IMG/VR virus record: IMGVR_UViG_3300004804_000042
Location: 1 to 20,192 of that record
DNA: 20,192 nucleotides
Strand: one strand, 5' to 3'
DNA from: a virus
The notes beneath the pieces are model-generated. The model was given only the letters and a program-made list of their open reading frames with translations. It had not been told where the DNA came from and searched no databases. Position 1 is the stretch's first letter; each line of letters starts with the position of its first letter. The position numbers and the translations under genes were made by a program. Below are positions 204 to 18,088 of this stretch, in pieces.

Positions 204-1603
204 TGGCACAACGTTTTAGGACACCTCCAGTTCCTCAGGGCGAAATTGCAAAATATACAAACGATCCATATAATTTAGCGTCCATTTACATGTTCGGGAG
301 TTCGTCTCCCTTCACTGGACAAGGCAACACTATCGTCAGGAGCCAAGATGATCTCCTTATCCAGAAGGGGGGCAATCGCGCCCTTTCAGTGTATCAACGT
401 TTATTGTTTGATGAACAATTACAAGGGTGCTTTTCAAAACTTCTCCAAGAAGTAACTTCACGCCCATGGTATATTGAGCCCTATAGCGATAAGCCTGGAG
501 ACATGGCGGTCCGCGACTTTGTAGTCGAGGTTATTGAAGAGATGCCCCTAGATGACATTTACAAAGGAATTGCTGAATGTCTAATAGTTGGTTTCTCCGT
601 TGGCGAGGTAATGTGGAAGAAGACGGGTAGAGGCGTTATTCCTTATGACATTCGCATGCGTGATCAGCGTCGCTTTGTGTTTCAAGAAGAAGAAGGAGCA
701 CAAACCGGTTTTACGATGCGCTGCCTCACTTTCAACCGCATGTTTGAGGGAGTGGAGTTGCCACAGCGCAAGTTTATTGTGAGTCGATATTTCGTTTCAC
801 ACAATGGCGATCCCTACGGTTCATCTTTAGGTCGTATTCTTTATCCCTTGATCAAGTTTCGTCGTCGCGCTATTGAGTCTTATGTTCTGTATGGGGATCG
901 TTATGCAACTCCTACGGCTGTAGCCAAAGCCCCCCTTAGTGCTAGTACACAAGAACTCGACACACTCTACGATCATCTCTCTAATTTATCGCAAGAAACT
1001 GCGATGATTTTGCCTGAGGGGTATGAGTTGGAGTTTGTGGAACCGCATGGCTCTCCCGACGTATTCAAAAATCTCATAGACTACATTGATAAAGAAATCA
1101 GTGTGTTGATTTGCGGTGAGAATGAAGCAGGGCAAGCTGAAGCTGGATCCAGAGCGTCTTCGCAGGTAGCCAATGTGGTTCGTGTTGTGAAAGCTTCTGA
1201 ACTATCAGAGATGATTTCACAAAATCTAACTCAGACGTTGATTCGTTGGATTGTGGATCTAAACTTCGGTACCGACGTGGCAGCTCCTATGCTTACACGG
1301 GAGTTCCGTATTGAAGAATCGCCTCTTCAAATGACTGATGTGGCTTTAATGATTCAATCTGGATTTACACCGAAAAAAGAATGGATCGAGCGTCACTTTA
1401 GAGTGGAGCTTGAGAGTAAGAAGGATGATACGCCACCACCTCAGGAAAACACTACTACATACAACCCTGATGAAGACCAAGATCTCTTTGGTTCTGTTTT
1501 TGGTGCGGATAATCAAACTAACCAACAGCCTGAAAAACCTTTTGGCGATGAAGAGATCACCGAAGACACTGCAGCGGATGACGCTGACAGTGGAGTAGGG
1601 TAA
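203..1603 (+). CDS. Portal protein, DUF935 / Mu gp29-like
   Basis: The 466-residue product looks like the DUF935 (phage Mu gp29) portal family, which forms the dodecameric ring at the capsid vertex through which DNA is packaged and to which the tail attaches. Visible family features, in order: a segment with SRPWYIEPYS near residues 86-95; a region with GFSVGEVMWKK (about 129-139) followed by the RRFVF strand; the DPYGSSLGRILYPLIKFRRRAIESY helix region (about 202-226); ILPEGYELEFVEP (about 272-284); and a late helical part with SSQVANVVRVVKASELSEMI. The C-terminal 60 or so residues are acidic and Asn/Gln/Asp-rich, probably disordered. Length is typical of the family. The next gene is the Mu-type protease/scaffold, the usual partner of this portal type. 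The stop codon lies inside the GGGTAAAAC motif at 1598-1606. Confidence 0.87.
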   Translation: MAQRFRTPPVPQGEIAKYTNDPYNLASIYMFGSSSPFTGQGNTIVRSQDDLLIQKGGNRALSVYQRLLFDEQLQGCFSKLLQEVTSRPWYIEPYSDKPGDMAVRDFVVEVIEEMPLDDIYKGIAECLIVGFSVGEVMWKKTGRGVIPYDIRMRDQRRFVFQEEEGAQTGFTMRCLTFNRMFEGVELPQRKFIVSRYFVSHNGDPYGSSLGRILYPLIKFRRRAIESYVLYGDRYATPTAVAKAPLSASTQELDTLYDHLSNLSQETAMILPEGYELEFVEPHGSPDVFKNLIDYIDKEISVLICGENEAGQAEAGSRASSQVANVVRVVKASELSEMISQNLTQTLIRWIVDLNFGTDVAAPMLTREFRIEESPLQMTDVALMIQSGFTPKKEWIERHFRVELESKKDDTPPPQENTTTYNPDEDQDLFGSVFGADNQTNQQPEKPFGDEEITEDTAADDADSGVG

Positions 1604-1606
1604 AAC
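1598..1606 (+). promoter_or_regulatory. Recurrent motif GGGTAAAAC (putative phage promoter element) before protease/scaffold gene
   Basis: GGGTAAAAC overlaps the portal stop codon and ends 25 nt before the GTG start at 1632. The same nonamer recurs in three other gaps (7725, 16970, 18080) at 31-38 nt from the next start, with looser copies at 5006 and 5553. A promoter role is inferred from position only. Confidence 0.45.
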
Positions 1607-1631
1607 TAAGCACCAGGTCACTTTAAGTACT

Positions 1632-4265
1632 GTGTTCACAAAGAAGATCCATGTGTTTAAGGCCGGTGATCAGACCTCTGCACAGGGCGTCCAAAGGAGG
1701 TTCACTCCTAAGGAACTCAAACAAGTCGTCAACAACTATGACCCGTCTATCCACGAAGCACCTTTAGTTCTTGGCCACCAGGGAGATAACGATAGTTTGC
1801 CCTCTTTTGGTTGGATTAAGGGTTTCGAGAGCGATGGTCAGAATCTGTATGCCGAAGTGGCATTCACAGACGTTGCCAAAGATCTCGTCAAAGACGGCCA
1901 CTACCGTAAGGTTTCCATTTCCTTCTATTCACCCGATTCGCAAATAAATCCACATAAGGGTGAGTGGAGTGCTCGTCATTTGGCGTTGCTCGGAGCTTCA
2001 CCTCCGGCTGTGAAAGGTCTTGAACCTTTCTCTTTTGCGGAGTGGGGAGAATGCTACGACTTTGCCGTTGCTTTGTCTCCTGCTGACATCTTTGATGATG
2101 AACTTGGACCGACGATGATCGTCGATAAAAGTCCGCTCGAAATGTTGAAAGAGAAGCTTGAAGAAGTTCGCAAAGACGTCACAGCTGCTGTGTCTGACTT
2201 GCAAGACTCTCAACAAGAACAAAAATCACAACAGACTGACCAAGTCGCGGCCTCTGACGGGGCGGCAGATGAAGCCAGTCCAGACAACCCCAGTCAACAA
2301 TTTGCCGAGCGGAAACGCGAAGGCACTGAAATTGCTCAGCAAACGGCTGAACTTGAAGACAATCTCCCCGAGGACCAATTTATGGAAGATAAGAACATCA
2401 GCCGTAAGCGCACGTCCGGTGCCAACGGCCAAGTCATGCAGGTTGTAGAAAACGTCTACAAAGAGCCTCGCAAAGAGCGGAAAGCCGCTGCTGATCGTTC
2501 AGCGGAGGCCAAGCGCCAGATCAAAGAAGGAGAGTTCGGCAAGGCTCACGAGACAGAGGAGCTCGAAAAAGATGAGGATGCCAAACTGTCGAATGACCAC
2601 AAAGAGCTGCACCCCAATCAGCGCATCCTGGATAAAAACAAAAACGGCAAGCTCGAAGCCGAAGATTTCCGTCATTTGCAAAAGCATGGGCCTCTGAGCA
2701 AAGGCGAGCACCCCGATGACAAAGCAGACCACGCTGAACTTGAATACGACGAAGTCTCCTATAAGACCAACCCCTCACCTGGCGTGGTGAAGTTCGGTAA
2801 AAAGTCTGAGTCGGATGATGATGATGACACAGGACGTTTTGAGACAGCTCGCTCTGCTAAAAATGGTTACGAAGACCGCATGCAAACGGGCAAAGCTGGC
2901 GCCGGTAGCGACACGGGACGTTTCAAAACTGCTCAAAGCGGAATGCAAGACGCTGACCGTTTGAACACAGCTGAAAATGGCGAGCAAGAAACCGACCGTA
3001 AAAAAACAGCGAAACAAACAGAAATGGCTAGTGATGGTCCTGAGCGCTGGGCCGGCCAATCCGACAACTATGAGCGGGTGACTAACATGGATCAATACGA
3101 TGTAGATGCTAAGTCTTACGGTGTGAATGCACCGAAAACTGCTTCAGGTTCTAACCCAGCTGGTCGTGAAGATTCCGACACCAAAGTCCCCACGGAGACT
3201 GAAGAGACTCCTGACAACGAAGTGTTCGCTGTTAGCACCATCAACGTCATGTCTGACGGTAGCATGCGCGTTCTTCGCCAAAAGAGTTCTGACGGTCGCA
3301 AAACAGTGAAAGGCGGAGCTATCGATCACGCCGAGCCTGAAGCGGCTGAAACTACTGGTCCTATGGGCGTTACAGCTCACGCTGAGGGCGATGATGAAGA
3401 CGAACCCGGTAACATCAAACAGGGCAAAGTGAAGCTGAACAAAGGCCAACTGGTTCCCGGTGAATACGAAGGTGGTGTGGCTCAAGTTGTTGGTCCCGAT
3501 GGTGCTTTCGCTGAAGTTCCTCGCGGTGAGAAGAAATCAACTGACAAACATCTTACACCGGGTGCATTCGATAAAATTGACGAAGCAGATCAAACCGTTG
3601 GTCCTGATGGTGCTTTCGCTGAAGATAATCTGAGTGGTACCTTCCAAGGCGGTCCCAACCAAAAGACCAAAAAGTCAGGTGGGGTGTTCTCGGAGGAGCA
3701 CGGTGAGAAGAAACCATACACCAAAACTGGTTTCGGTTCCACATACGATGAGGATGGCGATGACGAAGAGGGCGATGACTTCAATGAACTCTCCACAGAT
3801 CATTGCGGTATGGGCTCACAAAGTCAGTCACGCTCAATGGGTTTCCCAGAGCAGATGTACGAGGAACTTCAGTCGCTGAAGGACAAGTACGCTGAGCTTG
3901 AGCGTCGTCACCAAGAAACCAAGATGAATGCCCGTCGTGAGAAGATGGCTAGCGCCATCGGACATCTTTACACAGAAGGTCGTCTCACTGACGGTATCAT
4001 GCCCGAAGAAGACCTCATCTCATACTGCGAAGGACTGGAGTTTGGTACACTGGAGTTTAGTGAAGGCGAAACTGCTGCTACTAAACTGCTGGCACTTCTG
4101 AGCAAACTGCCTCCCATGGTCTCCTATGGTGAGATGGTTCCTTCCGGCACTTTCCAATACTCGGAAGAAGATCTTGACCCTCACAGTAAAGCACTGAAGA
4201 TGGTCGAAGCTTCTGAAGGCAAAATGGATTATGTCGAGGCTCTAAAGAAAGCGATGTATTCCTGA
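1632..4265 (+). CDS. Prohead protease fused to scaffold protein (Mu gpI/gpZ-like) with long acidic repetitive linker
   Basis: 877 residues. Residues 1-145 resemble the Mu gpI-type prohead serine protease: PLVLGHQGDND carries a candidate catalytic His (H49), then FGWIKGFESDGQNLYAEVAFTD, RKVSISFYS with candidate Ser (S95 or S97), and LALLGASPPAVKGLEPF, the typical alanine/proline closing strand. Residues about 150-730 are acidic, low complexity and repetitive, with an EF-hand-like loop (334-345), five 14-residue repeats (399-467), a repeated VGPDGAFAE and two Asp/Glu runs (about 394-398 and 707-717). A coiled coil follows (about 741-780), then a compact C-terminus (about 780-877), together resembling a scaffold. 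Protease-scaffold fusions are known in the Mu family, where the protease frees the scaffold during maturation; this one is much longer than the usual 350-450 residues. The start is GTG with no clear SD; an in-frame TAG at 1596 leaves no better upstream start. It sits between portal and minor head protein, the expected place. Confidence 0.78.
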   Translation: MFTKKIHVFKAGDQTSAQGVQRRFTPKELKQVVNNYDPSIHEAPLVLGHQGDNDSLPSFGWIKGFESDGQNLYAEVAFTDVAKDLVKDGHYRKVSISFYSPDSQINPHKGEWSARHLALLGASPPAVKGLEPFSFAEWGECYDFAVALSPADIFDDELGPTMIVDKSPLEMLKEKLEEVRKDVTAAVSDLQDSQQEQKSQQTDQVAASDGAADEASPDNPSQQFAERKREGTEIAQQTAELEDNLPEDQFMEDKNISRKRTSGANGQVMQVVENVYKEPRKERKAAADRSAEAKRQIKEGEFGKAHETEELEKDEDAKLSNDHKELHPNQRILDKNKNGKLEAEDFRHLQKHGPLSKGEHPDDKADHAELEYDEVSYKTNPSPGVVKFGKKSESDDDDDTGRFETARSAKNGYEDRMQTGKAGAGSDTGRFKTAQSGMQDADRLNTAENGEQETDRKKTAKQTEMASDGPERWAGQSDNYERVTNMDQYDVDAKSYGVNAPKTASGSNPAGREDSDTKVPTETEETPDNEVFAVSTINVMSDGSMRVLRQKSSDGRKTVKGGAIDHAEPEAAETTGPMGVTAHAEGDDEDEPGNIKQGKVKLNKGQLVPGEYEGGVAQVVGPDGAFAEVPRGEKKSTDKHLTPGAFDKIDEADQTVGPDGAFAEDNLSGTFQGGPNQKTKKSGGVFSEEHGEKKPYTKTGFGSTYDEDGDDEEGDDFNELSTDHCGMGSQSQSRSMGFPEQMYEELQSLKDKYAELERRHQETKMNARREKMASAIGHLYTEGRLTDGIMPEEDLISYCEGLEFGTLEFSEGETAATKLLALLSKLPPMVSYGEMVPSGTFQYSEEDLDPHSKALKMVEASEGKMDYVEALKKAMYS
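2631..2666 (+). other. EF-hand-like calcium-binding loop encoded in scaffold linker
   Basis: Residues 334-345 of the protease/scaffold read DKNKNGKLEAED and are followed by F. Asp at position 1, Asn at 3 and 5, Gly at 6, Leu at 8, Glu at 9 and Asp at 12 fit the canonical EF-hand/dockerin loop pattern. Flanking residues (RIL before, FRHLQKHG after) could form the short helices. Only one copy is visible, so it may be a lone or degenerate site. Calcium binding is inferred from the pattern. Confidence 0.5.
2826..3032 (+). repeat. Five tandem ~14-residue repeats in scaffold linker
   Basis: Residues 399-467 split into units of 14, 14, 14, 13 and 14 residues that align on [D/G]-R-[F/M/L/K]-x-T-[A/G]: DTGRFETARSAKNG, YEDRMQTGKAGAGS, DTGRFKTAQSGMQD, ADRLNTAENGEQE, TDRKKTAKQTEMAS. 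The DNA copies have diverged, so the array is old or held by selection on the protein. Function is unknown; a flexible spacer or interaction repeat is likely. Confidence 0.7.
3489..3624 (+). repeat. Direct repeat encoding VGPDGAFAE, 108-bp spacing
   Basis: Two 28-bp copies, at 3489-3516 and 3597-3624, differ by a single C/T change and encode VGPDGAFAE twice, 36 residues apart, in the acidic linker of the protease/scaffold. A related PGAF occurs between them. The near identity at DNA level suggests a fairly recent in-frame duplication. Confidence 0.7.
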
Positions 4266-4272
4266 GATAGCG

Positions 4273-5004
4273 ATGGACCTCCTTTCAACCGTAGGACTAG
4301 CTACTAAACGAAGGGAGGACTATTTCTCACAAGCTAAAGCATTGGCCAAAAAGCATAAGACCCGAGAAAGTCTTGAAGAAATGATGGCCAAAGATGCTAA
4401 AGTTATCGTCAAAGGATTGCGAGATAAGCAAATGAGGTGGGAGGAATATGAGCGGACGATGCTCGATAAAACCCTCACCTCTGCACTTGCAGCAGTTTAT
4501 CTTGGTGCTGGAGACAGCAAACCAGACGATAAGATGGAGAAAGCGTGGCCCACTATCGTGGGAGACATGTTACTGCCACTTGTGAAGTTCCTCTCAGAAA
4601 CACAAGAATACATCGATGATGGCACATTACGCCTTGGCGATAAAACAATGGACTTCGTCGACTATGACTTTGATAACGAACTTCTGGAAACCAACCCAGC
4701 AGAGCAAGGCGCCATAGAAGCCGCAAAGATGGTTGCAGTTGGTCGCACTTGGACTTCTTTACTCGGGCGAGTTATACGTTATATTGCAAACCCCACTTAT
4801 TCTTTCTTCAATCTTGGTAGCTATATGAAGCACCAAGAACAAGGCTACAAAGAAATGCGTAGGATTGGGTTGCAAGATAAAAAAACTTGCCAAGATTGTA
4901 CTCATTACCACGGATTAGGGTGGCAACCTATGGGTACTCTCCCTATGCCCGGAAGAGGATGCCAATGCTTTGATCATTGCCGGTGTTCAATTGAATACCG
5001 ATAA
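4273..5004 (+). CDS. Minor head / head morphogenesis protein, SPP1 gp7 / Mu gpF-like
   Basis: The 243-residue product is mainly helical and charged at the N-terminus and ends in a cysteine cluster: C206 and C209 (CQDC), then C230, C232, C236 and C238 in GCQCFDHCRCSIEYR. A C-x2-C followed by a CxC-type ending with an aromatic tail is what I recall for the C-terminus of the SPP1 gp7 / Mu gpF minor head family, which binds the portal and is ejected or helps DNA entry. The four or more Cys suggest a bound metal. Position just after the protease/scaffold and before the capsid genes agrees with that role. The gene starts 7 nt after the previous stop with only a weak GAG upstream, so it is probably translated by coupling. 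The N-terminal 200 residues show no motif I recognise. Confidence 0.65.
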   Translation: MDLLSTVGLATKRREDYFSQAKALAKKHKTRESLEEMMAKDAKVIVKGLRDKQMRWEEYERTMLDKTLTSALAAVYLGAGDSKPDDKMEKAWPTIVGDMLLPLVKFLSETQEYIDDGTLRLGDKTMDFVDYDFDNELLETNPAEQGAIEAAKMVAVGRTWTSLLGRVIRYIANPTYSFFNLGSYMKHQEQGYKEMRRIGLQDKKTCQDCTHYHGLGWQPMGTLPMPGRGCQCFDHCRCSIEYR

Positions 5005-5005
5005 C

Positions 5006-5014
5006 GGGTAAAAT
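5006..5014 (+). promoter_or_regulatory. GGGTAAAAT motif before HNH gene
   Basis: A variant of the recurrent motif (T instead of C at the end), two bases after the minor-head stop codon. It ends 6 nt before the HNH start at 5021, closer than the four exact copies, so it may act as a weak ribosome binding site rather than a promoter here. Confidence 0.35.
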
Positions 5015-5020
5015 ACAAGT

Positions 5021-5539
5021 ATGAAAATCCACTATCACACACACCACATCGTTCCAACACACGCTGGCGGAACTGACGACCCGAGCAATCTTGTCAGAGT
5101 GAATGTTGCAATGCACGCATTCATGCATCGACTTCGATACATAGAGATTGGAGACGAGTGGGATAGGATCGCATATGAAGGGCTCACTGGACAAATAACA
5201 TCAGCTCAAGCTACTGCTGAAGCCAGGAAAGAGTTCATTCGTCAAAACCCCAACCATCATTCAAACGCAGGGAAGAAAGGCGCAGCAACTCGAAATGCAC
5301 TTGGTGTCTCTGACAAAGCTCGCGAAAAAGCCCGCGAAACTGCAAGAGCCACAGGCAAAATGCCATGGTGGAACAACGGACTAAACAACAAAAGGTCTCA
5401 TACGTGCCCCGGTGAGGGGTATGTCTTAGGCAAACTACCTCACGGAAAGCATAACAGAACCTTTGTGGAATGTCCCCATTGCGGAATGTCTTGTGCTCTC
5501 CCTAATCTATCTCGTCACATTCTGGCGAGACACACTTGA
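5021..5539 (+). CDS. HNH homing endonuclease with WNNG module and C-terminal C2H2 zinc finger
   Basis: 172 residues. The HNH nuclease core is at the very N-terminus: H8-H9 (HTHHIVP), then GGTDDPSNLV with N23, then H32 and H36 (MHAFMHR), the metal and catalytic residues of the family. A basic helical part follows (about 85-112, rich in Lys/Arg/Ala). Next comes PWWNNG at 116-120 and CPGEGYVLG from C129, a module shared with the truncated frame at 1-203. The C-terminus has C151-x2-C154 and H166-x4-H171, a C2H2-type zinc finger, probably for target binding. Such free-standing endonucleases cut DNA lacking the gene and so spread between related phages. It is inserted between minor head and decoration genes with short gaps on both sides and disrupts neither neighbour. 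The ATG has no strong SD. Confidence 0.88.
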   Translation: MKIHYHTHHIVPTHAGGTDDPSNLVRVNVAMHAFMHRLRYIEIGDEWDRIAYEGLTGQITSAQATAEARKEFIRQNPNHHSNAGKKGAATRNALGVSDKAREKARETARATGKMPWWNNGLNNKRSHTCPGEGYVLGKLPHGKHNRTFVECPHCGMSCALPNLSRHILARHT

Positions 5540-5552
5540 AGTCCACTTATTT

Positions 5553-5562
5553 AGGATAAAAT
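5553..5562 (+). promoter_or_regulatory. AGGATAAAAT motif / Shine-Dalgarno of decoration gene
   Basis: AGGA at 5553-5556 lies 7 nt before the ATG at 5564 and is a normal SD. With the following TAAAAT it also matches the recurrent GG[G/A]TAAAA[C/T] motif, so the site may serve as ribosome binding site, promoter element, or both. Confidence 0.45.
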
Positions 5563-5563
5563 C

Positions 5564-6025
5564 ATGGCAACAAACGCTGCACCTATTTATTCAAAACAGT
5601 ACATCCGTTATGCCGAGACTTGGGAGGCCGCCGTTGACACCCAAAGCGGTGCTGTCGGCACTGTCGAAATCGGCGAACTCCGCGCTGTCTCCTACGCTAC
5701 TTGGGCTGGCCCCAACGTCGCCGCTGCCGGCGATGCTTTCACCGTCGCCCCCACAACCATCGTCGGCATCAACCAAGCTTACATGCCTTCAGCTCTCGCC
5801 CAACCTTACACAGCTCGTCAACTGACAGTTGCTACTAGCGGTCTGCTGCTCGTTGAAGTTGACCCTGCTTCTGCTGCTATCAGCTTGAACTCAGTGCTCC
5901 ATATCAATACGCTCGGCCAAGCAACTGCTGCTGGCACTGCTGTGACACTCGATGGCACCACACCTCTGATCCGTGAGAATATCGCAATCGGCGGTCGCAA
6001 GCTTGTGCTGGTTTCCTTCGCCTAA
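5564..6025 (+). CDS. Probable head decoration / capsid cement protein (DUF2190-like)
   Basis: 153 residues, Ala/Thr/Val-rich and predicted mostly beta strand, with no signal peptide or membrane segment. The second half (VATSGLLLVEVDP, SVLHINTLGQATAAGTAV, IAIGGRKLVLVSFA) resembles the small beta-tulip-like cement proteins (DUF2190 or lambda gpD type) that bind the outside of the capsid and stabilise it. Its place immediately before the major capsid gene is where cement proteins are usually found. Codon use is rich in C-ending codons, like the major capsid gene and unlike the tail genes, which suits a high-copy virion protein. The family call is by general resemblance and position; no residue-level motif decides it. 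An alternative is a minor capsid or small structural protein of other type. Confidence 0.55.
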   Translation: MATNAAPIYSKQYIRYAETWEAAVDTQSGAVGTVEIGELRAVSYATWAGPNVAAAGDAFTVAPTTIVGINQAYMPSALAQPYTARQLTVATSGLLLVEVDPASAAISLNSVLHINTLGQATAAGTAVTLDGTTPLIRENIAIGGRKLVLVSFA

Positions 6026-6152
6026 TAGCTAGGTTGTTAGCCGGGGTTTGGGCGCTCGTAGTTGTTAGGCAGATAGCCTAGAGAGACGCGATATAAGTCC
6101 CAACCCTGGTTGCAACCATTTGAAGACAATTTAATTTCGGAGACTCCTCCCC
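6026..6152 (+). promoter_or_regulatory. Non-coding leader of major capsid gene with direct repeat, small hairpins and 12-bp palindrome
   Basis: This is the longest non-coding gap in the window. It holds a near-exact direct repeat, GTTGTTAGCC (6033-6042) and GTTGTTAGGC (6061-6070); a small hairpin TAGGC-AGATA-GCCTA (6066-6080); a perfect palindrome TGGTTGCAACCA (6107-6118); and an AT-rich ATATAAG (6091-6097) that could be a -10-like element. GGAG at 6139-6142 is the probable SD, 10 nt before the ATG. It has no T-run, so it is unlikely to be a terminator. The recurrent GGGTAAAAC motif is absent. Confidence 0.5.
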
Positions 6153-7205: not shown

Positions 7206-7216
7206 TTACGGACACT

Positions 7217-7224: not shown

Positions 7225-7230
7225 GTTACC

Positions 7231-7674: not shown

Positions 7675-7691
7675 TATTTTACTACTCAACT

Positions 7692-7716
7692 GCCCCGGCT
7701 TCGGTCGGGGCTTTTT
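7692..7716 (+). terminator. Intrinsic terminator after tail tube gene
   Basis: Positions 7692-7711 fold into an 8-bp stem, GCCCCGGC with GTCGGGGC (one G-U pair), closed by a TTCG loop of the extra-stable cUUCGg type, followed by five T at 7712-7716. This is a textbook rho-independent terminator and should separate the capsid/tube transcript from the tail genes. Confidence 0.92.
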
Positions 7717-7724: not shown

Positions 7725-7733
7725 GGGTAAAAC
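7725..7733 (+). promoter_or_regulatory. GGGTAAAAC motif (putative promoter) just after terminator
   Basis: TAGGGTAAAAC begins 8 nt after the T-run of the terminator and lies 38 nt before the next ATG. A terminator that is followed by a new gene cluster needs a new promoter, which makes this copy the best argument that the motif is a promoter element. No clear -35 hexamer is seen, because the terminator occupies that place. Confidence 0.55.
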
Positions 7734-8314: not shown

Positions 8315-11137
8315 GTGGCAAGATACTCACCTTTACCAGCTGTATCCTTAGACCCCCGTACTGAAGCACAGCTTGTGCAACAGGCCTCTCAACGGGTTTA
8401 TGAGGCTTCTAATCACACGCTCAATGACTTTTCTGCAGGTAACCCCTTAGCCGCTTTACTCGAAGGAATGAGTTTTGCACAAGGAGAATTTCTTTATTGG
8501 GCTAACCAACTTCCAGAGTCGGTACTGGTCAACTGGATTGGCCCTTTCTTGGGAGCAATGCGGCGTCTTGGGACACCCGCAACTGCTCAACTTTTGTTCA
8601 CTATTCCCCCTAATAATCAGGTAGTAACTATTCCGGCGGGTTCCACTTTTACAACGAATCCTGCACTAACAGGCGGGGAGTCCTTTGAGTACATTCTGGC
8701 TGATGCTGTATCAATAGCGGCGGGTGATTCTTACGCCAGAGCTGCTGTTTACTCTCAGTATGTCGGAAGCTTATATAACTGTCCCGCAAATGCCATAACT
8801 GGTGCTTCAGCTAATAACGTACAAGGTCTCACTGTAACCAACCCTCTTCCGGCAGTGGGTGGTAGTGACGTTGAGACTTATCAGGATGTTCAAGAGCGTT
8901 TCTTCACCCTGATTCGTAGGAAAAACCCGGTTAGCGAACAAGATTGGCAAGATTTCTTCACTGATTTTTACGGGGTGGGCACACTAACCTCGGTGCAGCC
9001 TAATCGCCCCAGTCAAGGTGCTTACAACTATCTAACAGACTATCTTCTCCCCAACGGTCAAGTTTCCTTTTTCGTTCTGGGTCCCGGCGGTGTTGAACTA
9101 ACTCCCACTCAACTAGAGCGTGGACAGAATGTTGTGAACTTCATGGTTCCTGTAGAGAATCGTGGACACCTCTACCCGATAACCCTGAGTCAAGTTCAGT
9201 ACAATATAACTCTGTCAGTAGACGCCAATGGCGCATTTGGCGTTAACCCCAGAGACTCTTCGCTAAACTTTCGAGATCGTCTTTTTCTAGTTCTTCAACC
9301 GGGCAGCGTGTTCCCCAATACCATTGACCCAACAGTCAGTGATATTGATGCAGCATTTTATAACTCGTTCACAGCAACTACGCAATTTGTAGACCCGCAT
9401 ATTGAGGCTAGCGCTGCCTATAACACTCCCCCCGGACTCAGCGCAGACAACGCCACTTACACTGAAGTGTACTCTTTTGGACCCACCGAATATTTGTTAA
9501 ATCAGCATGATTTGGTGAAAACAACTCTACCCACTCCGCAATACTATCCCGTTCAGACTTCATTTACTCCTTATTCGACTAACAAAGCAGAACAGACAGT
9601 ATACGGAAACTTGGCTTTACAACAAATTCAGTACTTAGTGCCAGGTAATTACTACCAAGGCCAAGTCGCATATTGGGATCCCGCAACAGGCGGAGACGGG
9701 CATTTACACGTCATTCTACAAAATGTTTCAGTTTTATCCACTCAAGATATCGCCAGTTTGATCACGGCGGGTCGTATTTCGCCTGCAATGTCCTACAGTC
9801 CGTGGGTAGTGGGCAACTCGTATGTTGCTACAGTTGGAACTGCCTACTCACCACAAATTATTCAGTACGATTACTTGGCATCGGAGTTCATACCAACTTC
9901 AACTATACCACAAAATACTCGTCCTGGGACTTTCGTTTGGGTAGTGGCTCAGAACTTTACTCTTCAGCCCGCAACTGATTCTCTTGTCAGTGCCCAAGGG
10001 CAGGCAACCATTAGTCCCTCCGTTACGGTCCCTCAAGAGCTCATACCGGGTACCTACTATGTGGCAGGAACTTGGGTATTCACACCTCAAGTCGGGTCTG
10101 GACCCGATCCCACCGCTGATCCCTACTTCAACTATGTTGATACACGTTTAGGTGTAGTGAATAAGTATGCATATGTTGTTTCTAGTTTCACCTATCAGCC
10201 TAACACTCCAACGGAGACCATAAGCACTTATTTCGATACCCTGGTTTACCAAGGCATCATCAATGAAATCGTAGTGCAAAACGCAGATGTAGGTCTCCCT
10301 ATCTATAAGTATAAGCCACGATTTCCAGCAACCACATATTTGGAGTATCGCACAGACACTCTGGCCAACCCTGATTATTACATTGCTGCTTCTTATTTCA
10401 CCCCTAACAGCACTAATTCTCAAACCCTGCAAAACGAACGTCTGATATTCCCGCTTTATATCAACGAAACCCAGAAAACCGAGTTTTTGACATACTTGCA
10501 GGGCACCGCAGCAATTTCACCCACCAGAATGTTTCGTTTTTGGAAAGGCGACCGCACTTTCTTTCGTCAAGGGGTTACGGTTCTTTCATACACCGCCACT
10601 ACAAACGTCACCCCTTTGTTTGATTTCTCAGTTTACCTTGAGAACGGCGTATTTGTATTGACTGACACACTGCCCTCAGTGAACTTTACCGTGGAGCAGT
10701 ACGTACCGTACTTCAGTCCAGCATATGTCACCTACAGTGAAGATACTATTATTGCCGAAGATGGTCGCGACCTTTATAGGGTGATGCGTGCCTTTACTCC
10801 CACTCAAACTGTCGTAAACTGGACAAACACCACAGTTGTTAATACGACACGGAACGAAGAATACGCTGGCAATCTGCTTCGGTACGTCAATGCATACACT
10901 TGCGAGCAGCCGGTGTTATCTCAATTGGGCAAAGCAATTTCGGGCATCAAGTTGGGGATTACACAAGTCACGATCGTTCCAAAAAATAAAGGTCGTTTTA
11001 CCAACGATAATGAGAAACTTGTGTATGTGTGGGAGAACACTGCCACTCTCGGAGAAACTCCGCAACTTTCTTACTATCCTGGCACATCCTATGGTTACAC
11101 TCCGCCTACGTACGGCATAGGGACGTTAAATCTATGA
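8315..11137 (+). CDS. Baseplate J-like wedge protein (T4 gp6 family) with long C-terminal extension
   Basis: 940 residues, GTG start with GAGG 8 nt upstream (8303-8306). The first 300 residues look like the baseplate J/gp47 family: a helical N-terminus (TEAQLVQQASQRVYEA), GTPATAQLLFTIPPNNQVVTIPAGSTFTTN (about 87-116), then VTNPLPAVGGSDVETYQDVQERFFTLIRRKNPVSEQDWQDFF (about 172-213), where the GG-x-D-x-E and RxNPVxxxDW signatures sit. Members form the inner wedge ring of contractile-tail baseplates. The remaining 640 residues are beta-rich, with phrases such as VPGNYYQGQVAYWDP and IPGTYYVAGTWVFTP that recur loosely; T4 gp6 is about 660 residues, so the extension is large. I cannot assign the C-terminal part; it may carry wedge-wedge or fibre contacts. 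The stop overlaps the next start (ATGA). Confidence 0.8.
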   Translation: MARYSPLPAVSLDPRTEAQLVQQASQRVYEASNHTLNDFSAGNPLAALLEGMSFAQGEFLYWANQLPESVLVNWIGPFLGAMRRLGTPATAQLLFTIPPNNQVVTIPAGSTFTTNPALTGGESFEYILADAVSIAAGDSYARAAVYSQYVGSLYNCPANAITGASANNVQGLTVTNPLPAVGGSDVETYQDVQERFFTLIRRKNPVSEQDWQDFFTDFYGVGTLTSVQPNRPSQGAYNYLTDYLLPNGQVSFFVLGPGGVELTPTQLERGQNVVNFMVPVENRGHLYPITLSQVQYNITLSVDANGAFGVNPRDSSLNFRDRLFLVLQPGSVFPNTIDPTVSDIDAAFYNSFTATTQFVDPHIEASAAYNTPPGLSADNATYTEVYSFGPTEYLLNQHDLVKTTLPTPQYYPVQTSFTPYSTNKAEQTVYGNLALQQIQYLVPGNYYQGQVAYWDPATGGDGHLHVILQNVSVLSTQDIASLITAGRISPAMSYSPWVVGNSYVATVGTAYSPQIIQYDYLASEFIPTSTIPQNTRPGTFVWVVAQNFTLQPATDSLVSAQGQATISPSVTVPQELIPGTYYVAGTWVFTPQVGSGPDPTADPYFNYVDTRLGVVNKYAYVVSSFTYQPNTPTETISTYFDTLVYQGIINEIVVQNADVGLPIYKYKPRFPATTYLEYRTDTLANPDYYIAASYFTPNSTNSQTLQNERLIFPLYINETQKTEFLTYLQGTAAISPTRMFRFWKGDRTFFRQGVTVLSYTATTNVTPLFDFSVYLENGVFVLTDTLPSVNFTVEQYVPYFSPAYVTYSEDTIIAEDGRDLYRVMRAFTPTQTVVNWTNTTVVNTTRNEEYAGNLLRYVNAYTCEQPVLSQLGKAISGIKLGITQVTIVPKNKGRFTNDNEKLVYVWENTATLGETPQLSYYPGTSYGYTPPTYGIGTLNL

Positions 11138-12417: not shown

Positions 12418-12418
12418 C

Positions 12419-15400
12419 ATGACGCAATACGCACCCGTATTTAATACGACCGAGTTCGAACAGCGTGGTTACACTTCGCCATGGTTTTCTCCCGATCAGC
12501 AAAGTTCAGTTCAAGCTACTGAGAATAGGGTCAATGACCAACTAGACTGGCTGGCACAGTTTTTGGGTTGGAATGGGGGGAACTATTGGTTTAATCTAGC
12601 CTCTACAGTCTCCCAGAAACGCCAACTTTTGAGCGGGTCTTATGGTGTATACAACTCGTTCGTTGTTGCACGAATACTTTCAATAAGGAACTGGGATGAA
12701 ACAATCGTTATCGAACCCATTGAAAACCTTACATCAGGACTCAAAGTATTTCTTGATTACGATGAGTACACCATACAAAGTGTTGTCACTGAGAACGACA
12801 CTCAGGTAATATCTCTCGGATCTTTACCGCAGAGTTTCTATGATCAAATCGCCGCCAATGTTCAATTAAAGATTGACGTTCCCACTAAACGATCTGCGCC
12901 ATTCTATCGTCCAACAGTGGGTGTGGCTGGGGACAACTCTTTCGTATGCTCAGCGTCTGGAACTTCCCTTACGCTTTCCCCTAACTGGGACCTTCAGCAC
13001 GCATTCCCCTACAGTTTCCCAACACTTTTCGCCGGGTCTATCTATTACTTTGACCAACCTATTTTTCTTTCATACACTTCAACAATAAATGTTGATATTG
13101 CTCCGCAGTACGATAGTACTGTAGAAAGATGGTTTCTCACTATTCCCAAGACGCTGGTCACAGATGCATCAGGTCTCACGGTTTTCTTAGTGTGGGGCTA
13201 TTCCGACTCTACCTCTGCAGTCAATGCCACTCTTGCCGTAAAGATAGAACCCTGGCGAGATCCTTCTGATTGGGGCGATTCCAATATATTGAAAAACTTC
13301 TTAGGGACATGGGGCAATAAGGGTGGCCCTCTTCCCTTCAACTTTGTCTTTGACAGTCTAAGTCTTCATGGGTTCAACGAAGTCAACTCTCTGGGTCTTT
13401 CCACGTTTTCCCGCGTGTTGGGTTTCGACGACCTGGTGACGGATATTTACGATCAAAGAACCACAGTAGACGTGGAACCTCCGTCAAACCCGAAACTGGG
13501 GCAATCTTGGTGGAATACCGCGACTGGCGCGTTCGCTGTGTGGTATGGGCAAGGTCAAGACTGTTACGGGTGGGTCGAAGTCTCTTATAGAAATCCCCCC
13601 AATGTTGGGACAACTGTCTCTGTGTTTTATGCAAATGTGGCAGCATTCATAGCAAATGCTAACACTTTGCCTGTGGGAACTGTTGTTGAAATACTAGATA
13701 TAACGGGCCTATCTGTTGCTGAGAATGTTTTAGGTATCCAAGGCACTCTAACAACACCTGGAACACTTATTTTGTACCGATCAGACTCATCTGTGTATTG
13801 GACTCCCTCAGAGTTCGGGTATTTAACCTTATCTGATTGGTCAAACGTGGCTTCTTTGCTTCCCGCAGGGGTGCCGGTAGTTCTACAAGATGCCACTGGA
13901 CTAGGCACTCAATCTACTTTATACTCGCTCACTAACTTGGATATTGTCATCACTGAGAGTTACGAACTGAAACTCTTGAAAGTTTATAACAATACTACTT
14001 GGGAGGTGTTACCAGACTCTGTATTGAAATACATAGCCAACTCTTCTTTATCGGGCACCTTGAGAAACGGCGCCATGTGGTGGGACTATGCTAGTACACC
14101 TGTGTCGACTCGTGCCGCTAGCGTCTATGTTACGTCACCCTCTGGCATTGTGTCTTTATCCGTGTTAAATCCTGGTATTGGCCTTACTAACGGATTCTAT
14201 CCCGCCACATCTTTAGTGCTTCAAAGTGCTTCGGGTGGTGGTGGTGCGAGCGCAGATATAACTGTGACGGGGAATACCATTACGCTTGCTCTTATCAACA
14301 ATCCTGGTAGTTTTTACCAACAAGGCGACGTTCTATGTCCAGACAGTTCTCTATATCCTGGGTTAGTGGGATCTTATTTTGTTGTAGATCAAGTTTCAGC
14401 AAGCACATGGGTTTCGATTAATAGTAATGTCCCCTCTGCTTCTCCTAATGCTCCTCTAAATACCGCCGTGCTTCTGTTTTACTGCGACGGCGCACTGTTG
14501 CAGAATGGGATAGTTTACTCTACCGCTGACTATAAGATAATGTATAGTGGAGACTCAACTACAGCGAAATACACTTTTACTTACACTCCACTTAATCTCA
14601 CAGGAAAAACTCAATTTCCGACTATTACAATGTCGGACAACTTGACAACCGCATATGTCAAAGATATCACTGACCAAGTGTTTAGTGGTATCACCTATTA
14701 CATGTCTCCTAACGTGTACGATGCAGAATCGCCCCTTCGGTTGTGGAAGGGAGAGGCGCTACAGGTAGTGGAAACCCAAGCCCACCTTGCAGAAAACAAC
14801 TTTATCAATCCCCTTCGCGCTGACATCAATAACGGTCCTGGTCCAGAAAACTGGGAGCGGTACTTTGTCCGTATGCCCCTTGATTATGGAAGAAACGCAA
14901 CAATCTGGCAGAAGGTCGCACTGACTCTTCAAGACTTTGCCTATTGGGGTTCAAGTATAGATCCCGATCCAATGGAATGCCCGGATAGTTTGAGTGAACC
15001 TGTCATCTATGATGAACTGTTTCTATACTCCGATACAGTTCCCGATTACGCCTATGTTTATTCGGAACCGTACCTTTACTCGAACATTGCTTACTTCGAT
15101 AATGTTGAGAGCGGTCCTTACGCCAACTCAGGTATATTTCCCACTCAAGAACTACAGTTCGATGAGTTCACCGAAGCCCAGCTAACTGAATACGCACCCT
15201 TGCATAATCGCCAGGCAGACGTGGTTTCGGCAGTTGGCAAAGGATACGGAGATTGGATTGGAGAGTATGTCAACATCAACCCTTGCGTTCCCCTAACAGG
15301 GTTCCTGGAGATGGATTTGCTGAATGGAGGCGTTAGCCCTATTCCCGCACCAATCTGGGACGCCTCGATTTACAAAATCCCACCAACATGCGATCATGAC

Positions 15401-15562
15401 ATCAAAACTTACTCGGTCGACGCCAACCACTACAAACTCGGATACGCCTACTTCGTTGCTGACGCCTCCGTCGCCGAAGACGGATTCTTCGACGTCCAGC
15501 AAAAGTCAGCTTGGCGACGATCAGCCCCAGGACAAAAGTCCCTCTATCTCGCCGCCGGTTGA
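12419..15562 (+). CDS. Very large baseplate wedge/fibre-like protein
   Basis: 1047 residues; ATG one base after the previous TAA, with GAGG at 12409-12412 as SD. The N-terminus (about 1-350) is mixed and beta-rich. Around residue 360 is PKLGQSWWNTATGAFAVWYGQG...YGWVEV, a small module also seen in the fibre-like protein at 18113. Residues about 570-640 read as a Gly-rich beta repeat (NPGIGLTNGFYPATSLVLQ..., GGGGASADITVTGNTITLALINNPGSFYQQGDVL) of a type common in phage appendage proteins. A second compact part begins near residue 760 (SPNVYDAESPLRLWKGEALQVV) and a Tyr/Asp-rich stretch lies near 865-900. Size and place after a gp6-like gene recall T4 gp7 (about 1030 residues), but that is a positional guess. 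The last 57 or so codons are strongly C-ending and overlap the next gene. Confidence 0.75.
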   Translation: MTQYAPVFNTTEFEQRGYTSPWFSPDQQSSVQATENRVNDQLDWLAQFLGWNGGNYWFNLASTVSQKRQLLSGSYGVYNSFVVARILSIRNWDETIVIEPIENLTSGLKVFLDYDEYTIQSVVTENDTQVISLGSLPQSFYDQIAANVQLKIDVPTKRSAPFYRPTVGVAGDNSFVCSASGTSLTLSPNWDLQHAFPYSFPTLFAGSIYYFDQPIFLSYTSTINVDIAPQYDSTVERWFLTIPKTLVTDASGLTVFLVWGYSDSTSAVNATLAVKIEPWRDPSDWGDSNILKNFLGTWGNKGGPLPFNFVFDSLSLHGFNEVNSLGLSTFSRVLGFDDLVTDIYDQRTTVDVEPPSNPKLGQSWWNTATGAFAVWYGQGQDCYGWVEVSYRNPPNVGTTVSVFYANVAAFIANANTLPVGTVVEILDITGLSVAENVLGIQGTLTTPGTLILYRSDSSVYWTPSEFGYLTLSDWSNVASLLPAGVPVVLQDATGLGTQSTLYSLTNLDIVITESYELKLLKVYNNTTWEVLPDSVLKYIANSSLSGTLRNGAMWWDYASTPVSTRAASVYVTSPSGIVSLSVLNPGIGLTNGFYPATSLVLQSASGGGGASADITVTGNTITLALINNPGSFYQQGDVLCPDSSLYPGLVGSYFVVDQVSASTWVSINSNVPSASPNAPLNTAVLLFYCDGALLQNGIVYSTADYKIMYSGDSTTAKYTFTYTPLNLTGKTQFPTITMSDNLTTAYVKDITDQVFSGITYYMSPNVYDAESPLRLWKGEALQVVETQAHLAENNFINPLRADINNGPGPENWERYFVRMPLDYGRNATIWQKVALTLQDFAYWGSSIDPDPMECPDSLSEPVIYDELFLYSDTVPDYAYVYSEPYLYSNIAYFDNVESGPYANSGIFPTQELQFDEFTEAQLTEYAPLHNRQADVVSAVGKGYGDWIGEYVNINPCVPLTGFLEMDLLNGGVSPIPAPIWDASIYKIPPTCDHDIKTYSVDANHYKLGYAYFVADASVAEDGFFDVQQKSAWRRSAPGQKSLYLAAG
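13482..13590 (+). other. GxxWWN/D...VWY...GW module within large baseplate/fibre-like protein
   Basis: The encoded segment PSNPKLGQSWWNT...AFAVWYG...YGWVEV parallels GSLWYDSTNSNLNIWYVDLNGGQWISV in the protein at 18113 (about 18274-18357). It looks like a small shuffled beta module shared by appendage proteins of this phage. Confidence 0.45.
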
Positions 15563-15704
15563 AGTGATTATTGAGAAAAACCCCGAACCTATCGCTCCGA
15601 TCACCCAAAGGGCGCCTCACCAAAACCCCGCACCAGTAAAACCACCCGAGAAAGTTCAACATCGCAACATTCCTCGATTCGTTCGCGACTCTGACAAACA
15701 ATGA
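15396..15704 (+). CDS. Pro/Ser/Thr-rich small protein overlapping the large baseplate gene (start uncertain)
   Basis: The frame is certain to be open to a TGA at 15702-15704 that overlaps the next gene start as ATGA, a coupling arrangement that supports its translation. The downstream 46 residues are Pro/Lys/Glu-rich (EKNPEPIAPITQ, NPAPVKPPEK, NIPRFVRDSDKQ) and look disordered. Three starts are possible: GTG at 15564, just after the stop of the large gene; ATG at 15396 (102 residues, with a Ser/Thr/Pro-rich beginning); or ATG at 15324. I favour 15396 because from about that point the overlapping gene changes to C-ending codons, which in this frame are the second base of Ser/Thr/Pro codons. 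The short GTG form is the conservative alternative. Function is unknown; a flexible linker peptide of the baseplate hub is possible. Confidence 0.5.
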   Translation: MTSKLTRSTPTTTNSDTPTSLLTPPSPKTDSSTSSKSQLGDDQPQDKSPSISPPVEVIIEKNPEPIAPITQRAPHQNPAPVKPPEKVQHRNIPRFVRDSDKQ

Positions 15705-16495
15705 TTCCCCCCCTTAAATCTTCGGACTTTGTACAAAAAATCTCGATGCTTTTGGCAGCAAATGAGTCCAACAGAAAGTTGGCGGGTTTGCCCCATGGTA
15801 CTTTGCGGGGGGTTGTCACTTCTGTAGATGATCCGCTTAATCGCGGTAGAGTGCGGGTAATCTTCGATGACATGAACCCGGACATCCCACAAATCACAGG
15901 TGCCGGTGAAATATCGGGGCGAAGAATTGGAGAGGAACCAAATGCTTCCCATTGGATAGATGTTTCGCCTGCTTTCTCCGGTCGTCAACCGCCAGGTTTA
16001 GTTGGTAAGCGAGTGAACATCTCCCCGTCAAACGGTCAGTACCAATACGCTATCCTTCAAGACGTATTGTTCGATCCAGAGATTCACGCGACGGACGCCA
16101 AAAATAAACCAGAGATGCCGAACAATAGTTCGATGACTCGGCTCCCCATTTATCCCGCAGGTAGTCTTCCACCCGCTTCGTCAGAGAACCATGGTTGTAT
16201 GGTGATTGAGTCGGGTGGCCCGATGAACTCCGACTGGCTTTGCGTTTGTCTTAGTCGGGGCGGTAGCTTTATTTGGGTGCGTCATGTTGATCTTCAACAC
16301 GGTCATGCAGGTCAGAACGATGGTGGTCAAGGGAGCGACAGTCACGGTGACTCGGAACAGCCTGTTGACGAGCAAACAGTGTGGGACTTTGTCTTTCCAA
16401 CTTCGGCATCGGCTATGCCAAAAAACTCCTCGTTCGGCACATCTCCTCGTTCAAACCCTTATGGTGGGCAAGCCACCTGGAACTCTCCCCCCTAA
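15701..16495 (+). CDS. gp5-like baseplate hub/spike protein with OB-fold domain
   Basis: 264 residues, start coupled to the previous stop (ATGA). After a helical leader, residues about 33-130 show the OB-fold pattern of gp5/VgrG-type spike proteins: GTLRGVVTSVDDPLNRGRVRVIFDDMNPD, then SHWIDVSPAF, PPGLVGKRVNISPSNGQYQYAILQDVLFDP. This domain joins the spike to the end of the tail tube. The lysozyme domain of T4 gp5 is not present. The second half has GCMVIESGGPMNSDWLCVCLSRGGSFIWVRH and a His/Gly/Asp-rich stretch (DLQHGHAGQNDGGQGSDSHGDSEQ, about 197-222) that could bind metal, followed by a Ser/Pro/Asn-rich tail. It therefore probably serves as hub/spike base, with a separate puncturing tip or lysozyme elsewhere. 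The neighbouring order agrees with a baseplate cluster. Confidence 0.68.
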   Translation: MIPPLKSSDFVQKISMLLAANESNRKLAGLPHGTLRGVVTSVDDPLNRGRVRVIFDDMNPDIPQITGAGEISGRRIGEEPNASHWIDVSPAFSGRQPPGLVGKRVNISPSNGQYQYAILQDVLFDPEIHATDAKNKPEMPNNSSMTRLPIYPAGSLPPASSENHGCMVIESGGPMNSDWLCVCLSRGGSFIWVRHVDLQHGHAGQNDGGQGSDSHGDSEQPVDEQTVWDFVFPTSASAMPKNSSFGTSPRSNPYGGQATWNSPP

Positions 16496-16501
16496 ATAAC
16501 C

Positions 16502-16963
16502 ATGGCAATTCGTCGCCCTTCCTTCAGTTCTCCAACTTGGTTAGTCCAAGACTTCGCTTATTCCTCAATAGATACTGAGGAGTTTAGGTATCTTCAAGTG
16601 AAGTGGGACGGCGAAGCATACGCTCGTACCAACGAAACTTTCGACTATTCCACACCACCTTATGCTGTTGCTGAACAAAAGGGAGGTAACATTGTGGCTC
16701 AGATTGACTACAGCGTAGTCGGAAATATTGTCACAATTGAGGATTGGATGACAACTTGGAGGGACGAATGGCCTTTGCGGGTTGGCGTTAATAATCTGAC
16801 AAACTGCCTCTACCCCTATAATAAAAATTGGGTTGTGCGGGTTAGGAAAGATACAGAGGCTTATGCGTTTTTTGTCTCAGAATATTTCTATCCCTTCACA
16901 AATGAAGTGGGTTCCGAAACATACCTGTATTTCTGCGCCGAACCGCCTGAAAGAATGGTTTGA
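16502..16963 (+). CDS. Uncharacterised small structural protein
   Basis: 153 residues starting at an ATG 6 nt after the previous stop, with no SD, so translation is probably coupled. The second codon is Ala, as in several other genes of the window. The sequence is rich in Trp, Tyr and Phe: IEDWMTTWRDEWPLRVGV in the middle, CLYPYNKNWVVRVRKD, and AYAFFVSEYFYPFTNEV near the end, which suggests a compact alpha/beta fold rather than a fibre. I do not recognise the family. Its position between the gp5-like protein and the SWM-like/DUF1320 protein suggests a tail or connector component. No membrane span or catalytic motif is seen. Confidence 0.75.
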   Translation: MAIRRPSFSSPTWLVQDFAYSSIDTEEFRYLQVKWDGEAYARTNETFDYSTPPYAVAEQKGGNIVAQIDYSVVGNIVTIEDWMTTWRDEWPLRVGVNNLTNCLYPYNKNWVVRVRKDTEAYAFFVSEYFYPFTNEVGSETYLYFCAEPPERMV

Positions 16964-16969
16964 TTGGCG

Positions 16970-16978
16970 GGGTAAAAC
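16970..16978 (+). promoter_or_regulatory. GGGTAAAAC motif before SWM-like/DUF1320 gene
   Basis: An exact copy of the recurrent nonamer, in the 37-nt gap 7 nt after the previous stop and 31 nt before the GTG at 17001. The spacing matches the copies at 1598, 7725 and 18080. Confidence 0.5.
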
Positions 16979-17000
16979 CGATTAACTAAGACGCAGAAGA

Positions 17001-18080
17001 GTGGCAATTCCCAAGGTCAGTAACATTTCGGTCACGAATCCGACGACAGTAATGCTGACGTTTGATGGGCCCTTGGACACTCAAGTCGGTGTCCCAGTGA
17101 TGTCATTCACTGTGAACTATGGACAGATTGGCATAAGTGTAGTGAATTACGCTTCAACGACAATGATTTCGTTGGGGCTCGATGGGGCACTGTCGCCTTG
17201 GGACGAGGTGTTTGTTTCCTATGAGCCACCGCTAGACCTAAGACAATGTTTGAGGGGTCCGGTACCACCGACAGCCAATGATACAGTGTTGAAGCGGAAT
17301 GCTGTGAGGGCATTCTACCGTGTTCCGGCCATAAATGAAACATCGCCGGATGAAACAACTGATGGTTCGCACTCTCAATCAAACTTGGGAGCAACTATCG
17401 GAGGATACGGATTTCCATATCAGACTCGCAGTGGCGTGATGACTCCGGGTCATTCTGACCCCCGTAGCGCATCGCCCGACGACTTCATCACAGCCTACGG
17501 ACTAAAAGAAGCTATTCAACTCACAAATATTGATAATGCTTCAGCGACCACAGTGAATGTGGCAAAATTGCGCATGGCGATCCAGGACGCCAACTCACTC
17601 ATCGACTCCTACATTGAGCAGTCAGGTAAAGCAGGGCAGGTACTTATTACTTCAAATAGGAGACGCACTGCACTTATTATTGCTCGTTATTATCTAGACA
17701 CTGTACGTCGTCGCGAAGATGTACTACGTGACTTCGAATCTTGCCTAAAACAGATTCAAGCAGAAATGGCAATGACGGCCATACGCGCCGGAAATGGGGA
17801 TTCCGCTATTGATACCCCTCGCGGGATCATGAGGAGTTGGAGAATACCACAGCGTTATAACAGTGTCTCAGGGAAAGGTTTAAGCGGGTGGACCACTGAT
17901 ACAGCGGGCGATCAAGCACCAGACTATCGCGTAGGATACGGTGCAATCAATCAAAATGATAACAACCCCAACTGGATTACGGGTGATAACTATGCTGAAC
18001 TCACTGGCGGCACTCCGTCCATAATGGAACCAACAGACGGAGGTGGGTACACTTGGGATAACCAAGGGTTTGGACCTTAG
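17001..18080 (+). CDS. Fusion of SWM-repeat-like beta domain with DUF1320 (Mu gp36-type) head-tail connector domain
   Basis: 359 residues, GTG start. Residues about 5-77 (VSNISVTNPTTVMLTFDGPLDT, then VMSFTVNYGQIGISVVNY, TTMISLGLDGALSPWDEVFVSYEPP) follow the pattern of the SWM repeat known from the SwmB motility protein of Synechococcus and other secreted proteins, a beta-sandwich of about 75 residues. A Gly/Ser/Thr-rich linker follows (about 110-158). Residues about 160-257 (PDDFITAYGLKEAIQL, LRMAIQDANSLIDSYIEQSG, NRRRTALIIARYYLDTVRRREDVLRDFESCLKQIQAEMA) match the helical DUF1320 family, whose member Mu gp36 belongs to the head-tail joining module. The last 100 residues are Gly/Asn/Asp-rich and probably flexible. 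Normally DUF1320 genes lie next to the capsid gene; here it lies after the baseplate genes. Both assignments rest on recalled patterns. Confidence 0.65.
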   Translation: MAIPKVSNISVTNPTTVMLTFDGPLDTQVGVPVMSFTVNYGQIGISVVNYASTTMISLGLDGALSPWDEVFVSYEPPLDLRQCLRGPVPPTANDTVLKRNAVRAFYRVPAINETSPDETTDGSHSQSNLGATIGGYGFPYQTRSGVMTPGHSDPRSASPDDFITAYGLKEAIQLTNIDNASATTVNVAKLRMAIQDANSLIDSYIEQSGKAGQVLITSNRRRTALIIARYYLDTVRRREDVLRDFESCLKQIQAEMAMTAIRAGNGDSAIDTPRGIMRSWRIPQRYNSVSGKGLSGWTTDTAGDQAPDYRVGYGAINQNDNNPNWITGDNYAELTGGTPSIMEPTDGGGYTWDNQGFGP

Positions 18081-18088
18081 GGTAAAAC
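18080..18088 (+). promoter_or_regulatory. GGGTAAAAC motif before fibre genes
   Basis: An exact copy of the nonamer. Its first G is the last base of the preceding TAG stop. It lies 33 nt before the ATG at 18113. TATACG at 18094-18099 follows it but is too close to the start to be a usual -10 box. Confidence 0.5.

Follow-up and report, generated by a model that had tools for sequence, protein, structure and literature searches.

A near-strict octamer without a -35 box as the probable late promoter of S-CBWM1-like cyanophages, and a phage SigB/SigF-like sigma factor as its probable reader

Introduction

What is the role of a short sequence that recurs at the gene boundaries of a phage morphogenesis region, and which protein reads it? 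The window, as we call the whole stretch of DNA analyzed here, is a 20,192-base fragment from a virus record. Its genes include those for a Mu-like portal, a head maturation protease, a capsid protein, a tail tube and baseplate J, and by its proteins it groups with Synechococcus phage S-CBWM1. The major capsid protein (MCP) is 67% identical to that of S-CBWM1 and 39% identical to those of the next isolates (the S-TIM5 group), and the only relative of a 1047-aa tail protein among known phages is found in S-CBWM1.

A phage late promoter read by a phage sigma factor is a known kind of system. In T4 and the T4-like cyanophages, the late promoters carry the box TATAAATA, and gp55 reads this box together with gp33 and the gp45 clamp; T4 gp55 and gp33 form a split sigma factor (PMC2988020). 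The original prediction for the window was that a nonamer, GGRTAAAAY, may act as a phage promoter of a different kind and would divide the region into six transcription units. In this study, we focused on this motif, on its distribution among the relatives of the window and on its possible reader.

Materials and Methods

The complete genome and annotation of S-CBWM1, an Aokuangvirus of 139 kb, were used together with 80 related fragments taken from IMG/VR. S-CBWM1, the window and these relatives make up 1.36 Mb of clade DNA. The long relatives include G009 and G012; the MCP of each is 93% identical to that of the window. Site statistics were obtained from 154 non-redundant GGGTAAAA sites. Footprinting was based on blastn alignments of the window with its relatives at about 68-72% identity. 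Virion and lysis genes of S-CBWM1 were compared with 22 of its replication, nucleotide, regulatory or photosynthesis genes.

Results

Motif sites in the window

GGRTAAAAY matches the window seven times, while dinucleotide shuffles average 0.62 matches and none of 100 reached seven. As predicted, GGGTAAAAC occurs exactly at 1598, 7725, 16970 and 18080, always on the plus strand. The next start codons follow these four sites at 34, 38, 31 and 33 nt, which agrees with the proposed spacing of 31-38 nt. At 5006 the variant GGGTAAAAT is indeed present on the plus strand, but its start codon lies 15 nt downstream and thus outside that range. Apart from these five sites, no GGGTAAAA was found in the window when both strands were searched. 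The closely packed genes lack the motif, as had been stated. The seventh match to GGRTAAAAY lies at 9731 on the minus strand, inside a gene. The features are listed in Table 1.

Table 1. Putative promoter boxes and associated features of the window
Feature	Position	Strand	Remarks
Putative GGGTAAAA promoter box, unit A (head maturation protease, next head gene)	1598..1605	+	Exact match; predicted start A1612
Putative GGGTAAAA promoter box, unit B (HNH, decoration, MCP, tube)	5006..5013	+	Predicted start ~5021, which is the first base of the HNH start codon (leaderless)
Conserved ribosome-binding leader of the decoration gene (TTTAGGATAAAATCATG), no promoter box	5546..5566	+	Mistaken for a motif variant
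Intrinsic terminator GCCCCGGC-TTCG-GTCGGGGC-TTTTT, closes unit B	7692..7716	+	Hairpin kept in relatives
Putative GGGTAAAA promoter box, unit C (7763 gene, baseplate J, tail genes to 16963)	7725..7732	+	Predicted start ~A7740
Putative GGGTAAAA promoter box, unit D (17001-18080, Phage_Mu_Gp36 / head-tail adaptor-like)	16970..16977	+	Predicted start A16984
Putative GGGTAAAA promoter box, unit E (18113 gene, then fibre genes)	18080..18087	+	Predicted start A18094

The sixth proposed site is not a member of this group. The string concerned, GGATAAAAT, lies at 5554, only 10 nt before its ATG, and was rejected as a promoter; it belongs to the conserved 'TTTAGGATAAAATCATGG' leader of the decoration gene. 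In the relatives L074 and L039, this leader string stands downstream of a separate, real GGGTAAAA. In the clade, GGATAAAA occurs six times on the coding strand and five times on the other, which is no preference, versus 114 and 3 for GGGTAAAA. Because GGATAAAA is strand-even and the leader string is conserved below a true GGGTAAAA, the 5554 site was set aside. Relatives that have no HNH gene carry the octamer immediately upstream of the decoration gene; in the window, the HNH gene is evidently inserted between the putative 5006 promoter and the decoration-MCP-tube genes. We therefore count five units rather than six, since the 5554 string is part of a ribosome-binding leader and the HNH insertion has come to separate the 5006 box from the decoration-MCP genes.

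The HNH gene (window 5021-5539) precedes the decoration gene as an insertion in about one quarter of the relatives examined, and its ATG usually coincides with motif position 16, adjoining the predicted first transcribed base. Given this position of the ATG beside the predicted start, the HNH gene is predicted to take over the promoter of the capsid operon as a leaderless gene. A short ORF at window positions 30-203 has an end (MKGWNNGVKNTYAKECPGEGWVSGWLPRSKK) that resembles the C-terminal part of the HNH protein. It is likely the tail of a second homing-type gene located just before the portal gene.

Enrichment and strand bias across the clade

The 1.36 Mb of clade DNA contains 362 copies of GGGTAAAA on the coding strand and three on the other. 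In S-CBWM1, GGGTAAAAY occurs 28 times in forward and once in reverse orientation, and 29 of the 33 forward copies of GGGTAAAA lie outside coding sequence. The motif is thus not equally common inside genes or on the opposite strand; equal abundance there would have spoken against the original prediction. When the whole genome was counted and upstream regions were searched for motifs, the strongly strand-biased GGGTAAAA was the most enriched octamer of S-CBWM1 by a wide margin at 15-50 nt before annotated starts (23/33 sites, p ~2e-22). It was likewise the top upstream octamer in the long window relatives G005, G009, G012 and G013. No such bias was seen in T4, S-PM2, P-SSM2, S-N03, S-TIM5, P-SS2, S-CBS2, S-CRES3 and a Microcystis phage, which carry 0-6 copies of GGGTAAAAY per strand.

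Among 24 single-base variants of the core, only AGGTAAAA (16:3) and GGGCAAAA (16:5) clearly favour the coding strand. The GGGTAAAA core is near-strict, and the other single-base variants are close to strand-even.

Anatomy of the site

The 154 sites share the consensus (A/C)GGGTAAAA(C/T)(C/T)A, followed by free bases, a pyrimidine at position 14, and adenine at 15 (66%) and 16 (45%). The ninth base of the motif is C in 81 sites and T in 40. Adenine occupies position 15 in 102 of the 154 sites, against a mean of 29% in the later columns (p ~2e-20); in columns 17-68 its maximum is 41%. Taken together, 136 sites have A at 15 or 16, which is a fixed 6-7 bases downstream of the motif. The position of this adenine peak follows the motif rather than the start codon. 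Such a peak at a fixed distance from the motif is the mark of a transcription start. Counted from the first G of the motif, the first start codons are most frequent at 30-40 nt, and with a start at 15 or 16 this gives a predicted leader of about 15-25 nt. At four sites, including the HNH gene at window 5021, the ATG of a long ORF falls exactly at 15 or 16, so their messages would be leaderless. At one site of S-CBWM1, a tRNA gene follows at 39 nt (19573 to 19612).

No -35 element was detected upstream of the 154 sites, where all columns from -49 to -1 have at most 0.09 bits. At the right distance, GTTTAA is present in 0% and TAGGC in 0.6% of these sites. The -35 words of the SigA and SigB types and the -32 word of SigF, TTGAC included, are not enriched upstream.

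In S-CBWM1, a near-identical block, GAAAGATT(ATT/GCG)CACTGTCCCA, stands directly before GGGTAAAAC at three loci (L085, 26637-26670; L086, 15862-15895; L087, 26614-26646). It is perhaps a repeat or an activator site.

Conservation and classes of genes served

None of the 16 distinct relatives has a change in the octamer at 1598, while the bases on either side of it vary freely. At 7725 it is unchanged in 21 of 21 distinct relatives, with the terminator hairpin upstream, and at 5006 it is kept in all distinct relatives except L065. In S-CBWM1, the octamer stands 12-110 nt before the start in nine of 21 virion or lysis genes and in none of the 22 comparison genes (p 0.0005). When whole motif-led units are considered, they hold 18 of the 21 virion or lysis genes versus two of the 22 others (p 3.6e-7). 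Hairpins resembling intrinsic terminators were found within 70 nt upstream of 18 of the 154 sites versus 19 of 386 gene starts without the motif. The bias of the units toward virion and lysis genes, together with the upstream terminators, is the pattern of a late promoter.

Candidate readers

S-CBWM1 encodes two sigma factors, gp045 and gp055. The best NCBIfam match of gp045 (241 aa) is the SigB/SigF/SigG model (2.8e-14), which covers residues 17-154, that is, regions 2 and 3, at 53 bits and thus below the cut-off of 234. All 13 of 13 members of the gp045 family match this model best. In HMM searches no region 4 was found above the cut-off, only weak partial matches, and a diverged region 4 can escape HMMs. 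The AlphaFold model of gp045 was recognized by Foldseek as a sigma-70 fold with an unreliable domain arrangement (TM 0.29); in place of region 4 it has three helices, the last one long, at moderate confidence (mean pLDDT 66). When the gp045 profile was compared with the PDB, the top match (8vd6, a repeat protein) was discarded as a spurious short helix match; the closest non-spurious structure was 8x6g, a SigB-type structure (Staphylococcus aureus sigB complex).

Orthologues of gp045 with 51-57% identity are present in 11 IMG/VR records, including G009 and G012, and all 11 carry the motif, with copies mainly on one strand. Elsewhere among phage records, gp045 has only matches of at most 34% identity. 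The gp045 gene of S-CBWM1 has no motif directly upstream; an octamer at 110001 follows right after the gene. Since the window is a 20 kb fragment that holds no sigma gene, the link between motif and gp045 runs through the relatives. The other factor, gp055 (204 aa), is a sigma-70 protein (TIGR02937, 4.6e-15) with region 2 and a weak region 4, and its orthologues in G009 and G012 are 48-52% identical.

In Bacillus and Streptomyces, the -10 boxes of SigB read GGGTAT or GGG(A/T)A(A/T) (PMC8346170, PMC9847131), and SigF of Synechocystis needs GGTAA at -12 in its type 3 promoters (PMC2758279). The first bases of GGGTAAAA fit these boxes of the SigB/SigF family.

Structured leaders and other observations

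No Rfam family matches the window. The gap before the capsid gene (window 6037-6152) contains a conserved structured RNA with two covarying stems, which has no Rfam match at the gathering score. In its stems 93% of cells are paired and 59 cells have changes on both sides of the pair, far above shuffles and slid controls; stretches of the GTAAG type and TTGAAG are invariant. This clade-specific RNA occurs once per genome before the MCP gene in the window, G005, G009 and G012, and is not convincing in S-CBWM1 or S-TIM5. It possibly controls translation or stability in capsid synthesis. The leader of the decoration gene (L006:9324-9404, L068:9346-9427 and 20 other loci) has a 5-bp hairpin that starts some 8 nt downstream of the predicted start of transcription; two of its pairs are fully compensated (G-C to A-U) in nine of 20 sequences. 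The decoration and MCP leaders share TTGAAGTC, and TTGAAG(T/A)C is common to both.

In four records (L090, L092, L093 and L097, from G017, G018, G019 and G023), the capsid gene lies in two or three pieces within a stretch of 1-3 kb; this arrangement points to introns or inserted homing elements in it.

Discussion

We infer from comparative sequence data that GGGTAAAA is a promoter in vivo, that its timing is late and that gp045 reads it. The first of these is very probable in our judgment, and the late class is highly likely. That gp045 is the reader is probable, and the same holds for the explanation as a whole, a -35-less late promoter of the S-CBWM1-like clade that would be read by the phage-encoded, SigB/SigF-like gp045 family. 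The central claim of the original prediction, a phage promoter unlike that of T4 that splits the window into units, is thus supported by the strand ratio of 362:3, the placement before morphogenesis genes, the conservation, the initiator adenine and the clade-specific sigma factor.

In the proposed mechanism, GGGTAAAA would be a self-sufficient 'composite -10' element that works without a -35 box. The host RNA polymerase core, carrying a phage sigma factor of the S-CBWM1 gp045 family, would read the box and start at the adenine 6-7 bases downstream, leaving a short leader or, in a few cases, none. With regions 2 and 3 and no recognizable region 4, gp045 would choose promoters by the -10 box alone. 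If the sigma factor lacks region 4, this would account for the missing -35 box, as in T4. There is about an even chance that a sigma factor of the stress type (SigB/SigF-like) was cut back to regions 2-3 in this lineage and that, as a result, the late genes are selected by an invariant composite -10 box of eight bases alone, in parallel to and separately from T4 gp55.

Four other explanations deserve attention. If the promoter is real, it might be read by the gp055 family, a sigma-70 protein that has orthologues in G009 and G012 and distant relatives among the sigma factors of other cyanophages, for example S-N03. However, relatives of gp055 occur in T4-like cyanophages, and S-N03, S-PM2 and P-SSM2 have only 0-2 copies of GGGTAAAAY per strand, which is no enrichment. 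The affinity of this family is not to SigB/SigF first, so it does not predict the match to GGGTAA, and gp055 of S-CBWM1 sits in a unit led by the motif at 99643, as would be expected of a gene switched on by the system and less of one that starts it. We consider gp055 an unlikely reader. A host group 3 sigma factor of the SigF type would also account for the GGTAA, which Synechocystis SigF requires at -12 (PMC2758279). SigF promoters, however, also need TAGGC at -32, which is nearly absent from the sites, and the other cyanophages tested do not use the octamer, which makes this explanation improbable.

The narrow distance between motif and start codons would suit an RNA signal, either a nuclease cleavage site or a translation element of the leader. 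Against this stand the conserved A, whose spacing is constant from the motif but not from the start codon, the genes whose ATG falls exactly at this A, the site followed by a tRNA gene and the terminators that often precede the motif; an RNA signal is therefore very improbable. Least credible of all is an ordinary host SigA-type promoter whose -10 box happens to read TAAAAT. This hexamer is contained in GGGTAAAAT, and some cyanobacterial promoters have no -35 box. Yet the -10 boxes of SigA end in a fixed T, and the sites do not follow TANNNT, as the ninth base is more often C than T. In addition, the upstream GGG is strictly required, and the octamer is missing from control phages that infect the same hosts.

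The gp045-read late promoter, as we propose it, has likenesses to several known systems. With the late system of T4 it shares a -10-only box without a -35 element, present in many copies before virion genes, and a phage sigma factor without usable region 4, for gp045 as judged by failed HMM matches. It differs from T4 in the box, GGGTAAAA, and in the SigB/SigF-like type of the sigma factor. The T4-type box TATAAATA has no copy on either strand of S-CBWM1. The gp55 family (phrog_234) is absent from S-CBWM1, G009 and G012, while it was found in T4, S-PM2, P-SSM2 and S-N03 at E <1e-60. The profile of the gp45 clamp, PF02916, matches T4 only and misses even S-PM2, so its power is low.

The SigB promoters of Bacillus and Streptomyces (GTTTAA-N12-15-GGGTAT) have the GGGTA core in common with the clade box, and SigB/SigF/SigG is the best match of gp045; unlike them, the clade sites have no GTTTAA at -35, and the core is extended to a nearly invariant GGGTAAAA. 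Synechocystis type 3 promoters (TAGGC at -32, GGTAA at -12) belong to a cyanobacterial group 3 sigma system and share GGTAA at the -10 position, but the clade sites lack TAGGC and their reader is probably a phage protein. The cyanosiphoviruses P-SS2 and S-CBS2 encode a group 3 type sigma factor, to which no promoter was assigned (PMC2784084). This factor is about 30% identical to gp045 over regions 2-3, and that of P-SS2 also has no region 4 match by HMM. Unlike the clade, both genomes carry only one or two copies of GGGTAAAAY, without enrichment.

The S-TIM5 sister lineage has an octamer, GTTTAAAG, that is similarly placed before starts, although both its sequence and the diverged sigma factor differ from those of the clade. 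In S-TIM5 (JQ245707) and L130-L138, 36 copies of GTTTAAAG were counted, of which 29 have an ORF start downstream, in most cases at a distance of 27-48 nt. From this placement, GTTTAAAG is probably the late promoter of the S-TIM5 lineage, with its own sigma factor at about 110708-111091.

In the open-access literature searched, which did not include the S-CBWM1 genome paper, we found no account of the late switch of these non-T4 cyanomyoviruses. The combination of this box, this sigma type and a -35-less group 3 promoter was likewise not described in the open-access literature searched. Among the matches listed for the octamer string, all were unrelated and mostly primer sequences, and nothing was found on an S-TIM5 promoter.

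If our explanation is correct, this clade would use a different late switch from the textbook system of phage T4. With a single pattern search, one could then mark out the late genes and the limits of operons in hundreds of environmental fragments of the clade. The box and its reader would provide a clear-cut way to test the minimum that a sigma factor needs for promoter choice, as well as a short, tight pair of promoter and sigma factor for Synechococcus. Together with GTTTAAAG in S-TIM5, the findings would suggest that sister lineages have changed the box, and that box and sigma factor may evolve together.
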